In this document: positions 3,924-7,485 of the stretch, piece by piece
How positions within the stretch are numbered: the stretch's first letter is position 1
How the letters are laid out: every line of letters starts with the position of its first letter
From: Leptolyngbya subtilissima AS-A7
Lineage (GTDB): Bacteria; Cyanobacteriota; Cyanobacteriia; Phormidesmidales; Phormidesmidaceae
NCBI RefSeq assembly: GCF_039962255.1
Contig: NZ_JAMPKY010000008.1
Span: forward strand, 248,001-312,000
DNA: 64,000 nucleotides
Direction: 5' to 3'
Translations under genes and position numbers: made by a program
Notes under the pieces: generated by a model
What the model was told of the DNA's origin: nothing
Database searches by the model: none
What the model saw: the letters and a program-made list of their open reading frames with translations, nothing else

Positions 3924-4679
3924 TTAGCTAGAGACCATTGCTGCCAAGTCAAGGTCGCCCACCGCTGAGCGATCGAGCAGCCAGCGCAGTTCTCCCTGGG
4001 GGCGCACCATCCGGGAGGGATAGGCCTCGTCGTCGCCATCGGGGGCAAATACCTGGGCCAGGGCGGCCTGTTTGTCCGACCCGGCTACTAAAAACATGAC
4101 CCGATGGCTGTGGTTAATTAGCGGGGCGGTAAAGGTGAGGCGAGGGTCGCTGCCCTTTTGGCCCACGGCAATCAGTCGATCATTTACTTTCAGCGCCTCG
4201 GTGTAGGGAAAGAGGGAGGCCGTATGGCCGTCATCGCCCATGCCTAGCAAAATGAGGTCGAAGCGGGGCACCTGATCAGGGCCAAGGCCCTGAAGCCCAC
4301 CAAAAATTGACTTGACCATCGCCTCGTACTGACGGGCCGACACGGCTGGATCCCCCTCTAGGGTAGGGGCATAGAGAATGTGGTCGGGCGGAATGGGCAC
4401 CCGGTCGAGCCAGGCGGCCTTGGCCATGCCCCCGTTGCTGTCGGGATGGTCGAGGGGCACGTAGCGCTCGTCGCCCCAAAAAATGTAGAGTTTTTCCCAG
4501 GGCAGATCTTGCTCGGCCAGGCCGCTGTAGAGGGGTTTGGGGGTGCTGCCACCAGCCAGGGCCAGGGTGCAGTAGTCGTGGTCGGCTACGGCGCTGTGGA
4601 TGGCCTCGACCACCAAGGCTAGGGCCCGCTGCACCAGGGCAGGCTTGTCGGACAAGATCTCAAGCTGCGGCGCGGTCAT
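3924..4679 (-). CDS. pgl: 6-phosphogluconolactonase
   Basis: A 251-residue cytoplasmic enzyme that hydrolyses 6-phosphogluconolactone in the oxidative pentose phosphate pathway, the main route of dark carbon catabolism in cyanobacteria. Family motifs visible: LALAGGSTPKPLY (39-51), WGDERYVP (68-75) and LILLGMGDDGHTASLFP near residue 145. Length is normal for DevB/Pgl. The start ATG at 4679 has only a weak ribosome-binding site. It is divergent from the urease genes. No zwf or opcA is adjacent. Confidence 0.94.
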   Translation of the reverse strand: MTAPQLEILSDKPALVQRALALVVEAIHSAVADHDYCTLALAGGSTPKPLYSGLAEQDLPWEKLYIFWGDERYVPLDHPDSNGGMAKAAWLDRVPIPPDHILYAPTLEGDPAVSARQYEAMVKSIFGGLQGLGPDQVPRFDLILLGMGDDGHTASLFPYTEALKVNDRLIAVGQKGSDPRLTFTAPLINHSHRVMFLVAGSDKQAALAQVFAPDGDDEAYPSRMVRPQGELRWLLDRSAVGDLDLAAMVSS

Positions 4680-4905
4680 AGGCAGGGGTTACCAAATAGG
4701 GGTTCTAGCGGGTCTTGGGGGCTAGATGTTAGAACGTTTTGATTGTTTCTCATCAGCAGACTAACGTAGTTATTACCCCAGCGCCGATGGCTTAAGCTTT
4801 AATTTTGAAGCCAGAACTCAATCAGGTGAAGGCCTTGGTTGACAAGCCGCCCAAAACCTTGAAAGCTTACGGTTAGCTCTGTACCCTGCGATCGCATCTT
4901 GCCCC

Positions 4906-5208
4906 ATGCAACTGACCCCCCAGGAAAAAGACAAGCTGCTAATTTTTACCGCTGCCCTGGTGGCCGAACGCCGTAAAGACCGCGGGCTGAAGCTCAACCA
5001 TCCCGAGGCCGTTGCCTACATTTCTGCGGCCATTTTAGAGGGGGCGCGCGATGGGCGCACTGTGGCCGACCTGATGAGCTACGGCACCACTCTGCTCAGC
5101 CGAGCCGAGGTCATGGATGGAGTGGCGGAGATGATTCACGATGTGCAGGTGGAGGCTACCTTCCCCGACGGCACCAAGCTAGTTACTGTTCACGAACCCA
5201 TTCGGTAG
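4906..5208 (+). CDS. ureA: Urease gamma subunit
   Basis: A 100-residue UreA, the small structural subunit of nickel urease (urea to ammonia and carbamate). The start [20 protein letters not shown] and the segments [14 protein letters not shown] and [18 protein letters not shown] are characteristic, and full length is normal. It is the first gene of an operon-like run: eight bases separate it from the S41 gene, which in turn overlaps ureB. No perfect NtcA box (GTA-N8-TAC) was found in the 226-base upstream region. The catalytic subunit ureC and accessory genes are not in the window. Confidence 0.96.
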
Positions 5209-5216
5209 GGCAATCC

Positions 5217-6275
5217 ATGGCTGTTTCTGGCTCTAACCCAGGGGATATTGTGCTAGATGCTGAGGCGATCGAGGCTGTGCTAGGAGCACTGGTCACCCAG
5301 CTCGATGCCTACGTATTTCCCGAGGTGGCGGAAAAAATTCAGAACGACCTTGAGCAGCGCTTAGAGGCAGGGGGTTACGGCGACTTGACCGGCGGGCAGC
5401 AGCTGGCCGATACGCTAACGGCCCAGCTCCAGCAGATGAGCGGCGATCGCAACCTGCGCCTGCACTTCAGCCCCGCCCTCCTGCCCCACCTAGAGCCTGA
5501 CACAGCGCCTGATGCCGCGGAGATTGAGCGCCAGTACAAAGCCAGTCGTCGCCGCAATTTTGACTTAAACAAAGTTGAGCGCTTGCCCGGCAACGTGGGT
5601 TACATCCAGCTATTTAGCTTTGAGCCGCCAGAGTTTGCCGGCGAGACTCTGGCCGCCGCCATGACCCTGGTGGCCCATACCGACGCCCTCATCTTTGACC
5701 TGCGCCACAACCAGGGGGGCTCCCCAGCTACAGTGGCGCTGCTGTGCAGCTATCTACTTCCCGCCCATCCACCCGTTCACCTCAACGACCTGTACTGGAG
5801 CGAAACCGACGAAACCCACCAGTGGTGGACGGTGCCCTACGTGCCGGGGCAGCGCTACCTCGACAAGCCCGTCTTTGCCCTCACCAGCCCTGAAACCTTC
5901 TCAGCGGCGGAGGAGTTTGCCTACAACCTGCAAGTGCTGAAGCGCGGAGCCGTGGTGGGTGAAACCACTCGCGGTGGAGCCAATCCGGGACGCGGCTTTC
6001 GCCTACACGACCATTTCTGGGTCTTTATGCCCACGGGTCAGGCAATCAACCCCACCACTGGCAAAAACTGGGATGGTACAGGGGTGATCCCCACCGTCAA
6101 GGTGCCGGCGGAGACGGCCCTCGATACGGCTCACCTGATGGCCCTCAACCACCTGCTAGAGGCCGGGCCCGAGGGCGTGGCCCGCCGCGAGCTGGAGGAA
6201 ACCCTGCCCAGAGTTGAGCGATCGCTTCAGCAAAAGCGCCAAGACTTAATTGCCAACCTAGGAGGCCCGTCATGA
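5217..6275 (+). CDS. S41 family (tail-specific/IRBP-like) peptidase inside the urease operon
   Basis: A 352-residue S41-family protein. Residues about 1-115 form a helical N-terminal region (IRBP-type S41_N-like); residues about 120-300 are the peptidase core. Visible motifs are [13 protein letters not shown] (123-135), DLRHNQGG (161-168), the putative nucleophile Ser229 in [12 protein letters not shown] and the [13 protein letters not shown] block (246-258). There is no signal peptide or PDZ domain, so it should act in the cytoplasm, unlike the periplasmic CtpA proteases. It starts eight bases after ureA and overlaps ureB by four bases (ATGA), so the three genes are almost certainly co-transcribed. 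A role in urease processing or turnover is conjecture. Confidence 0.88.
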
Positions 6276-6577
6276 TTCCCGGAGAACTGCTGCCCGCCGA
6301 GGGCGAAATTGAGCTGAACGCGGGCAAAGAGACAGTAACGCTGGCGGTGGCCAATACGGGCGATCGCCCTATCCAGGTCGGCTCCCACTTTCACTTTTTT
6401 GAGGTGAATGCGGCGCTGAGCTTCGACCGCGACCAGGCCCGGGGTATGCGGCTCGATATTCCTGCCGGTACTGCTGTGCGCTTTGAGCCGGGCGATGAGC
6501 GCGACGTAACTTTGGTGCCGTTGGCTGGGGAGCGACGGGTCTACGGGTTCAATGCCCAGGTCGAAGGGGCACTGTAG
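6272..6577 (+). CDS. ureB: Urease beta subunit
   Basis: A 101-residue UreB with the family start [20 protein letters not shown] and the conserved [18 protein letters not shown] segment, which packs against the UreC active-site flap. Full length is normal for a separate beta subunit. The start codon overlaps the stop of the preceding S41 gene as ATGA, implying translational coupling. Unusually, ureC does not follow: the next gene is a toxin-antitoxin pair on the opposite strand. The catalytic subunit must be elsewhere if urease is functional. Confidence 0.96.
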
Positions 6578-6712
6578 TCCCTAATTGTAGGCATTTCCCA
6601 TGATGAAGATACTCGGGTTATCTCCCCTGCCTCCTTTAGAAAAATGGGGTGAACAATTGTGCTTGTGATGGCGGATGTCGGGGAATTTTCTGCAAGATGA
6701 CCTGATTGTTGA

Positions 6713-6762
6713 CCTTCCCCATGCCTCACAGCTCTGTTAGGGCTTCAAAGACATGGGGAAGG
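6713..6762. terminator. Hairpin downstream of ureB, possible terminator
   Basis: An 11-base inverted repeat CCTTCCCCATG (6713-6723) / CATGGGGAAGG (6752-6762) with a 28-base loop lies in the gap between ureB (+) and vapC (-). A second hairpin, GGAACACA (6813-6820) / TGTGTTCC (6828-6835) with a 7-base loop, lies nearer vapC. Either could end transcription from one side. Neither has a good U-tract, so the terminator call is tentative. Confidence 0.45.
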
Positions 6763-6863
6763 CGATTTGAGGAAGAATTAACAATCGAGATCAGCGGCGG
6801 TAGACAGCCTTAGGAACACATCAGCATTGTGTTCCCGTTACCACGCGGCGTTAGCTGGAGACG

Positions 6864-7253
6864 CTAATCCAAGCACTGAAATCCCTTTTCTCCCTTCAAT
6901 TTACCGTCGAAGCTTGCGGTTTCTGTACAACCCGCCTGCCGAGAGACGGCTCCAATCAGGTAATCAGAAAAATCTGCTTTGCCCTGTTTATATCGCTGAA
7001 GGGCTTGGTCAAGGGTTGAACGGCTTTCAAACTCAAAGGCAGCGCTGTGGAGCATTGCCTCTAGAATATCGACTACTTCAGTTTTCTGAAAGCGATATTT
7101 GGCACCTCTAAGCACCCAAACCAGTTCGCACAAAACGATGTTGGCAATAAAGCAGGGTTGGTTTTGCTGAATGACTTCAGAGGCTTGCTGCCATTGCGGC
7201 TCGTGGTCACGGGTAAGGTAGCGCACCAAGATATTGGTATCAAGCCCAATCAT
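6864..7253 (-). CDS. vapC: VapC-type PIN-domain toxin
   Basis: A PIN-domain ribonuclease of about 129 residues starting MIGLDTNILVRYLTRD. The acidic residues of the active site are visible: Asp5 in LDTN, Glu in CELVWVLR, Asp in KADFSDYLIG and Asp in TASFDGK. VapC toxins typically cleave tRNA or rRNA. The reading frame stays open upstream to 7325, but the ATG at 7253 is chosen because it puts the start motif at the family position and overlaps the antitoxin stop by 14 bases, as usual for vapBC. It is transcribed with vapB on the minus strand. Confidence 0.9.
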   Translation of the reverse strand: MIGLDTNILVRYLTRDHEPQWQQASEVIQQNQPCFIANIVLCELVWVLRGAKYRFQKTEVVDILEAMLHSAAFEFESRSTLDQALQRYKQGKADFSDYLIGAVSRQAGCTETASFDGKLKGEKGFQCLD

Positions 7254-7485
7254 TAGCGCCCTCAGAAATGGCAGCATCCATGTCATCTTGGGTAGCAGGG
7301 GAGGTGTTAGGCCGATGGAGGACACCTGACAAGGATTCTATGGCAACGGTGAGGGGAAAGATTTTGACCTGACCGCTTTCGTCAATGACGAACTCGACTC
7401 GACTGCCGCTGACAAGTTTGAGATGCTGCCGGATTTCGTCAGGCAGAGTGATCTGCCCAGTGTCGGTGACAGTGGTGCTGAACAT
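7240..7485 (-). CDS. vapB: VapB-type AbrB/SpoVT-domain antitoxin
   Basis: An 81-residue protein with an N-terminal SpoVT/AbrB swapped-hairpin DNA-binding domain: TVTDTGQITLPDEIRQHLKL, then SGSRVEFVIDESGQVKIFPL. The C-terminal part (about 50-81, SGVLHRPNTSPATQDDMDAA) is the usual toxin-binding tail. It precedes and overlaps vapC. VapB proteins repress their own promoter, so an operator is expected just upstream of 7485, but I could not define one. Confidence 0.88.
   Translation of the reverse strand: MFSTTVTDTGQITLPDEIRQHLKLVSGSRVEFVIDESGQVKIFPLTVAIESLSGVLHRPNTSPATQDDMDAAISEGANDWA

Follow-up and report, generated by a model that had tools for sequence, protein, structure and literature searches.

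A gene between ureA and ureB in Nodosilinea and related cyanobacteria encodes an S41 protein of the IRBP type whose presumed active site is eroded

Genes at the ureA/ureB locus

The window, by which we mean the whole stretch of 64,000 nucleotides analysed, contains three genes arranged head to tail on its plus strand. The first is ureA (4906–5208), which encodes a urease gamma subunit of 100 residues (PF00547, 158.7 bits; NF009712, 176 bits with a cut-off of 123), and the last is ureB (6272–6577), which encodes a urease beta subunit of 101 residues (PF00699, 160.8 bits; NF009682, 173.9 bits with a cut-off of 129). Between them lies an IRBP-type S41 gene (5217–6275; PF03572 and PF11918) for a protein of 352 residues, which is cytosolic as judged from its sequence. 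The gene begins 8 nt after ureA and ends in a 4-nt overlap with ureB, the ATGA at 6272–6275 combining the S41 stop with the ureB start; the coordinates, spacing and overlap given in the initial annotation are all exact. This spacing suggests that ureA, the S41 gene and ureB are co-expressed, and production of the S41 protein is probably coupled to ureB. Expression of urease genes of Nodosilinea has been reported from soda-lake mat proteomes (PMC12598745). A crude scan of positions 4680–6900 found no terminator-like sites and no plus-strand promoter-like sites. Using GTA-N8-TAC, which we take to be the NtcA-type consensus, we found one match in the 15 kb of the window locus (L082), at 4283–4296, with 0.79 expected; it is not upstream of ureA (start at 5907 in L082) and was rejected as an NtcA-type site for this gene.

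3′ of ureB, the minus strand carries a PIN (PF01850)/MazE-like (PF04014) gene pair at 6864–7485, which is the opposite-strand toxin-antitoxin pair previously noted there. The listed GTG start of the PIN frame (7325) is well within the antitoxin gene, and starting at the ATG at 7253 gives an overlap of 14 nt. The missing ureC, also pointed out at the outset, was located on another contig of the window genome: ureC is on C3, ureD on C4 and the ureA-S41-ureB triple on C8. ureC is likewise far from the triple in three further Nodosilinea genomes (G008, G011 and G014).

The protein belongs to the S41 family by its match to PF03572 (79.6 bits, cut-off 24) and to the IRBP type by PF11918 (33.5 bits, cut-off 26.6) and its fold. 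An AlphaFold2 model (pLDDT 91.9) has its best fold matches among IRBP modules (4lur, Z 28.4 over 298 residues; 7jti_D, Z 27.8; 1j7x, 26.5; 9frx, 22.8), and the first matches outside IRBP follow at Z near 21. The best PDB match by sequence is the vertebrate RBP3/IRBP module 7jti_D (E 1.5e-40). An acidobacterial relative from the outgroup scores the same, so the likeness belongs to the whole bacterial IRBP-type group, and a special closeness of the window protein to IRBP was rejected. This bacterial group has been discussed as the source of IRBP via horizontal transfer, and the loss of protease residues in IRBP is described in the same work (PMC10450429); another account presents IRBP modules as retinoid and fatty-acid carriers that have lost these residues (PMC11750400). 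Vertebrate IRBP (RBP3) has four tandem modules, is secreted and binds retinoids, whereas the window protein consists of one cytosolic bacterial module and is not an IRBP proper.

CtpA, CtpB and Prc share the S41 core fold with the window protein (Z about 19–21). In contrast to these C-terminal processing peptidases, it has no PDZ domain in Pfam, carries Gly254 at their lysine position and reaches 34.5 bits with TIGR00225, well below the cut-off of 218.6. Pfam and NCBIfam searches at E up to 0.001 returned S41 families only and no UreD/E/F/G accessory match. Three other S41 genes in the window genome score far higher with PF03572 (184–206 bits) than the gene studied here (81.7 bits in this comparison).

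Conservation and history of the gene order

The best named match to the window S41 protein comes from Nodosilinea sp. FACHB-131 (98% identity), and the genus is Nodosilinea. We find the S41 gene in 58 of the 63 genomes of the order, all 58 of which are labelled as one family; the search for it in the ureA/ureB neighbourhoods of relatives, proposed in the initial annotation, thus succeeded. Comparing the positions of the three genes by hand from tables, we found ureA-S41-ureB intact on one contig in 36 of the 58 genomes and consistent with this order up to contig ends in another 5 (G006, G009, G013, G022 and G038). One genome (G065) keeps ureA-S41 and has ureB elsewhere, and in 16 the S41 gene lies away from ureA/ureB (G039–G044, G047, G061–G063, G066, G068–G071 and G073). 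Within the genus, the triple is intact in 22 of 26 genomes, and the remaining 4 are consistent with it as far as their contigs extend. It recurs throughout the genus and in several further genera, and in other genera the S41 gene is an open frame at 56–67% identity. Two laboratory strains that carry the triple are Nodosilinea nodulosa PCC 7104 and Leptolyngbya sp. PCC 7375. This recurrence rules out a chance capture in the window genome alone, and the observation is more general than is visible from the single window sequence. A class-wide sample of 388 genomes gave 64 with a match at 1e-10, 56 in the family and 8 outside it. The parts of the urease and S41 literature covered here, among them passages of one survey (PMC6737895), mention no S41 gene placed between ureA and ureB.

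The five genomes of the order in which we found no S41 gene can all be attributed to assembly. A contig edge falls at the expected S41 site in G046 and G072, G064 is 61% complete, and G074 also lacks ureA and ureB; in G074 and G067 the M20 hydrolase that neighbours the S41 gene elsewhere is missing too (only distant M20 matches, 41–44% identity). G043 and G044 contain the S41 gene and have no ureA or ureB match. As G044 has ureC, these gaps are likely due to assembly, and we do not take them as proof that the S41 gene occurs independently of urease within the family.

Named loci, by which we mean the best 80 of 374 matching stretches, were used for the comparisons below, and the outgroup is therefore a sample. 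Besides Nodosilinea, the family loci come from Leptothoe/Adonisia, Halomicronema, Phormidesmis, Vasconcelosia and others; the outgroup comprises 32 loci from Acidobacteriota, other cyanobacteria, Bacillota and others. UreA, UreB, UreC and UreD gave no tblastn match at 1e-6 near these 32 loci (flanks of up to 6 kb per side, shorter on short contigs). The triple is present at 31 named loci. At 22 of them the S41 stop and the ureB start share 4 nt, and at L103 they share 1 nt; at 8 loci of the Leptothoe clade, the ureB start as aligned follows the S41 stop at a distance of 11–35 nt. In further copies from this clade, however, the longest ureB frame already starts 1 nt inside the S41 stop. By a crude hydropathy rule, a signal-like N-terminus is present in 24 of the 32 outgroup rows, whereas L088, with a borderline value of 2.09, is the single such case in 45 family rows, a contrast that is real and not absolute, since 8 outgroup rows, among them cyanobacteria and both Bacillota, also lack it and start codons were picked by rule. 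For the window protein, the absence of a PDZ domain (Pfam) and of a signal-like N-terminus (sequence), both claimed earlier, holds.

A maximum-likelihood gene tree was calculated from 73 rows (41 family and 32 outgroup), leaving out six near-identical rows (L084, L085, L087, L101, L123 and L124) and adding L050. The family is separated by a starred branch (support 98/99). Its first branch is linked to the urease genes, the branch joining the rest (91/83) is not starred, and two changes between the linked and the unlinked state are needed among the family rows. Because the first branch is linked and two changes suffice, the simplest history on this tree, which is rooted with distant outgroups, would have the S41 gene settle between ureA and ureB once and later be parted from the urease genes in Phormidesmis and in the Halomicronema/PCC 6406 group.

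The S41 protein may be a dedicated urease factor, an adaptor, chaperone or quality-control protein that binds nascent UreB/UreA and whose siting aids assembly during translation. This would agree with the frequency of the intact triple in the family and in the genus, though ureC and ureD lie elsewhere, with the 4-nt overlap in most of the named loci and with a tree that favours the triple as the early family state. It has to be set against the 16 unlinked genomes, against the many other cyanobacteria in which ureA and ureB are adjacent or enclose unrelated genes (see below) and against G034, G093 and G129, which have no ureA or ureB match and carry more distant S41 relatives (L061, L062 and L063), albeit with signal-like N-termini and an intact catalytic set. 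On balance, we regard a dedicated urease factor as unlikely. L061, L062 and L063 all belong to one cyanobacterial genus, have the signal-like N-terminus and retain His-Ser-Glu.

The presumed catalytic residues

The serine of the T-x-S-x-A-E motif is present in the window protein as Ser229 in ETFSAAEEF (codon 5901–5903), as had been correctly recognised. The presumed triad at positions 79, 229 and 286 reads Asn/Ser/Asp, with codon 79 at 5451–5453 and codon 286 at 6072–6074. His79, Ser229 and Glu286 are each found in 32 of the 32 named outgroup rows (best 80 of 374). In the 45 named family rows of the same sample, from which the partial loci L100, L129 and L140 were excluded, residue 79 is Asn in 19, Gln in 12, Ser in 8, His in 4, and Thr and Ala in 1 each; residue 229 is Ser in 37 and Thr in 8; and residue 286 is Glu in 18, Asp in 17 and another residue in 10. 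The presumed triad is eroded in the family. A fragment (L065) and a distant sequence (L066; 32% identity, without His at column 79 and without Glu at 286) were excluded from the invariance list and from these counts, and L059–L064, which lie outside the family and beyond the 32 rows, are H-S-E.

Placing the catalytic histidine at position 79 rests on its invariance in the outgroup sample and on SaNSR (4y68, Z 18.7). SaNSR resembles the window protein in its S41 core, its T-x-S-x-A-E serine and its N-terminal helical bundle; it keeps the histidine that is replaced by Asn at the presumed equivalent site of the window protein, and its N-terminus is transmembrane, whereas that of the window protein is not. 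The SaNSR H98A variant retains 14% activity, similar to S236A, according to the published study (PMC4698656). By analogy, we infer that Ser236 and His98 correspond to Ser229 and residue 79, the latter coming after the third helix (60–75) of the N-terminal bundle in the model; residue 79 would then be the general base. The lysine of C-terminal processing peptidases stands, we assume, 25 residues after the serine and hence at position 254 of the window protein. Both general-base candidates are thus replaced in this protein, by Asn79 at the NSR-type His site and Gly254 at the CTP-type Lys site, and catalytic activity may have been lost. His266, which is present in 30/32 outgroup and 45/45 family rows (named, best 80 of 374), could be the true base, as judged from its conservation.

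The erosion differs between lineages. In the Leptothoe clade (L121–L128, 8/8 named rows), S229T is coupled with G254K and residue 79 is Ser. In the Halomicronema/PCC 6406 group, L104–L108, L110, L111, L115 and L117 have His rather than Thr at 250, Gln at 79 and a residue other than Glu at 286. Thr229 with Lys254 in the one group and His250 in the other suggest that a base may have shifted in position instead of disappearing. Phormidesmis has H-S-E in 3 of its 4 named rows. On the tree, the 41 family rows require eight substitutions at residue 79 and nine at 286. Linked rows read NSD (12), STE (6), NSE (4) and HSD, TSD, ASE, QSE and QSN (1 each) at positions 79/229/286; unlinked rows read QSG (4), QSA (3), HSE (3), QSS (2), QSE (1) and QST (1). 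Only two independent pairs bear on a correlation between linkage and loss of His79, too few to show one.

These residues bear on the initial suggestion that the S41 protein is a protease that matures urease. Asn79 and Gly254 speak against it, as do the 16 of 58 genomes in which the gene is unlinked and the end-to-end matches of both subunits to their urease equivalog models (UreA, 1–100 of 100; UreB, 1–101 of 104). With full model matches and the presumed base absent, a maturation protease was rejected as the leading reading.

The protein could instead be an active cytosolic peptidase in peptide/nitrogen salvage, possibly together with an M20 hydrolase, and be co-expressed with urease because both recycle nitrogen. 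An M20 hydrolase indeed adjoins the S41 gene in the Halomicronema, Phormidesmis and Leptothoe groups, and the intact set in most named Phormidesmis rows and the predominance of Ser229 in the family would be in keeping with activity. Of the 45 named family rows, however, 41 lack His79 and 27 lack Glu286 (17 with Asp). The gene in Halomicronema/PCC 6406 and Phormidesmis is often beside the M20 hydrolase, a DUF3318 gene or a BioD-like gene, and as the neighbourhood also has a kinase, it looks like plain synteny; none of the M20-cluster genes is found in the 15 kb around the window gene (L082). An active salvage peptidase therefore appears improbable to us.

The ureA/ureB junction and the role of the S41 protein

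As a control for the junction, 155 genomes were sampled from the class, 118 of which are outside the family and have ureA. Junctions were classed by the first ureA copy, keeping second ureB copies, and 12 ureA rows outside the family were excluded (10 second copies and 2 fragments of G136). ureB lies within 300 bp of ureA on the same strand in 71 of the 118 genomes, an ‘adjacent’ class to which second copies, if included, would add one or more genomes (G089 among them). In 21 genomes, 449–2745 bp separate ureA from ureB, and 26 are not so linked. We inspected 14 of the 21 gaps, the other 7 being 708–748 bp long. The 14 contain no S41 gene, and 13 hold other genes of at least seven kinds, the gap in L184 showing nothing clear. 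Uma2 genes are found in L175 and L180 (with L172 just under the cut-off), an AAA_21 ATPase and DUF4276 pair in L170 (L173 alike by eye), large membrane proteins in L171 (without Pfam match) and L174 (alike by eye), DUF1963 in L176 (L177 alike by eye), DJ-1/PfpI in L178 (a short remnant in L183), GNAT in L179 and an OprB porin in L169. The AAA_21/DUF4276 pairs (L170, 436–2279; L173, reverse complement, 443–2265) come from two genomes of another cyanobacterial family and give the impression of being possibly defence-like.

In Acidihalobacter, a published description places cynS between ureA and ureB (PMC9062700). This gene and the cyanobacterial Uma2 and DUF1963 inserts occupy the same junction and belong to gene families other than S41. 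The unrelated genes at this site in other cyanobacteria indicate that the ureA/ureB junction tolerates inserts, and a location there is therefore no proof of a role in urease; a gene can sit in a urease operon without working for the enzyme.

A permissive junction might also harbour a neutral passenger, retained only through the overlap of the S41 stop with the ureB start. We calculated a median dN/dS of 0.110 for the S41 gene in Nodosilinea (19 rows; 142/171 pairs, dS 0.05–1.5), compared with 0.027 for ureA (154/171 pairs) and 0.043 for ureB (122/171 pairs). Purifying selection on the S41 gene is clear and weaker than on ureA/ureB. It argues against a passenger, as do the frame that stays open in other genera and the survival of the gene after its separation from ureA/ureB in two groups, and we consider neutral retention very unlikely. 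The original idea of a capture by chance is compatible with the unrelated genes found at the same junction in other cyanobacteria, but the S41 gene is clearly maintained.

We favour, with moderate confidence, a reading in which the S41 protein, cytosolic, of the IRBP type and eroded at its presumed active site, is an early lodger in the urease operon that is under selection, probably for binding or weak hydrolysis and probably not for urease processing. Its sampled relatives elsewhere mostly start with a signal-like N-terminus and have the His/Ser/Glu set intact. A cytosolic single-module form would have entered the ureA/ureB junction in or before the common ancestor of Nodosilinea's family, and most lineages would then have lost the presumed general base while retaining the fold and most core residues. 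As the presumed base is lost and the fold kept, the protein would most likely bind a peptide or a small ligand, or be a very weak peptidase. Its role would be mostly its own, and its place in the operon would be held by the ureB overlap and the insert-tolerant junction, not by a duty in urease maturation. The protein looks more like a lodger with its own job than like a urease-processing enzyme. Two observations run counter to this and could reflect a functional tie to urease: Nodosilinea has retained the triple while ureC and ureD moved, and the ureB overlap recurs in deep branches. In contrast to IRBP, most family rows also retain Ser229, which is odd for a pure pseudo-enzyme.

IRBP is a bacterial peptidase turned carrier in the vertebrate eye. 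The S41 protein might be a bacterial counterpart, a peptidase turned non-proteolytic binder in a urease operon that binds UreA/UreB during synthesis or senses a nitrogen-linked ligand, with an active site rebuilt in Leptothoe as Thr229 and Lys254; we offer this tentatively and think it doubtful. The sites in the family can be ordered from intact, as in some Phormidesmis, through eroded in Nodosilinea and Halomicronema to altered in Leptothoe, all in a fold that is kept. This natural series, present in cultured strains, allows tests of a change from peptidase to carrier. G313, which belongs to another family, contains only a C-terminal S41 piece of 139 residues (L065, 4025–4444; 61% identity over the matched part), perhaps the remnant of a transferred copy.
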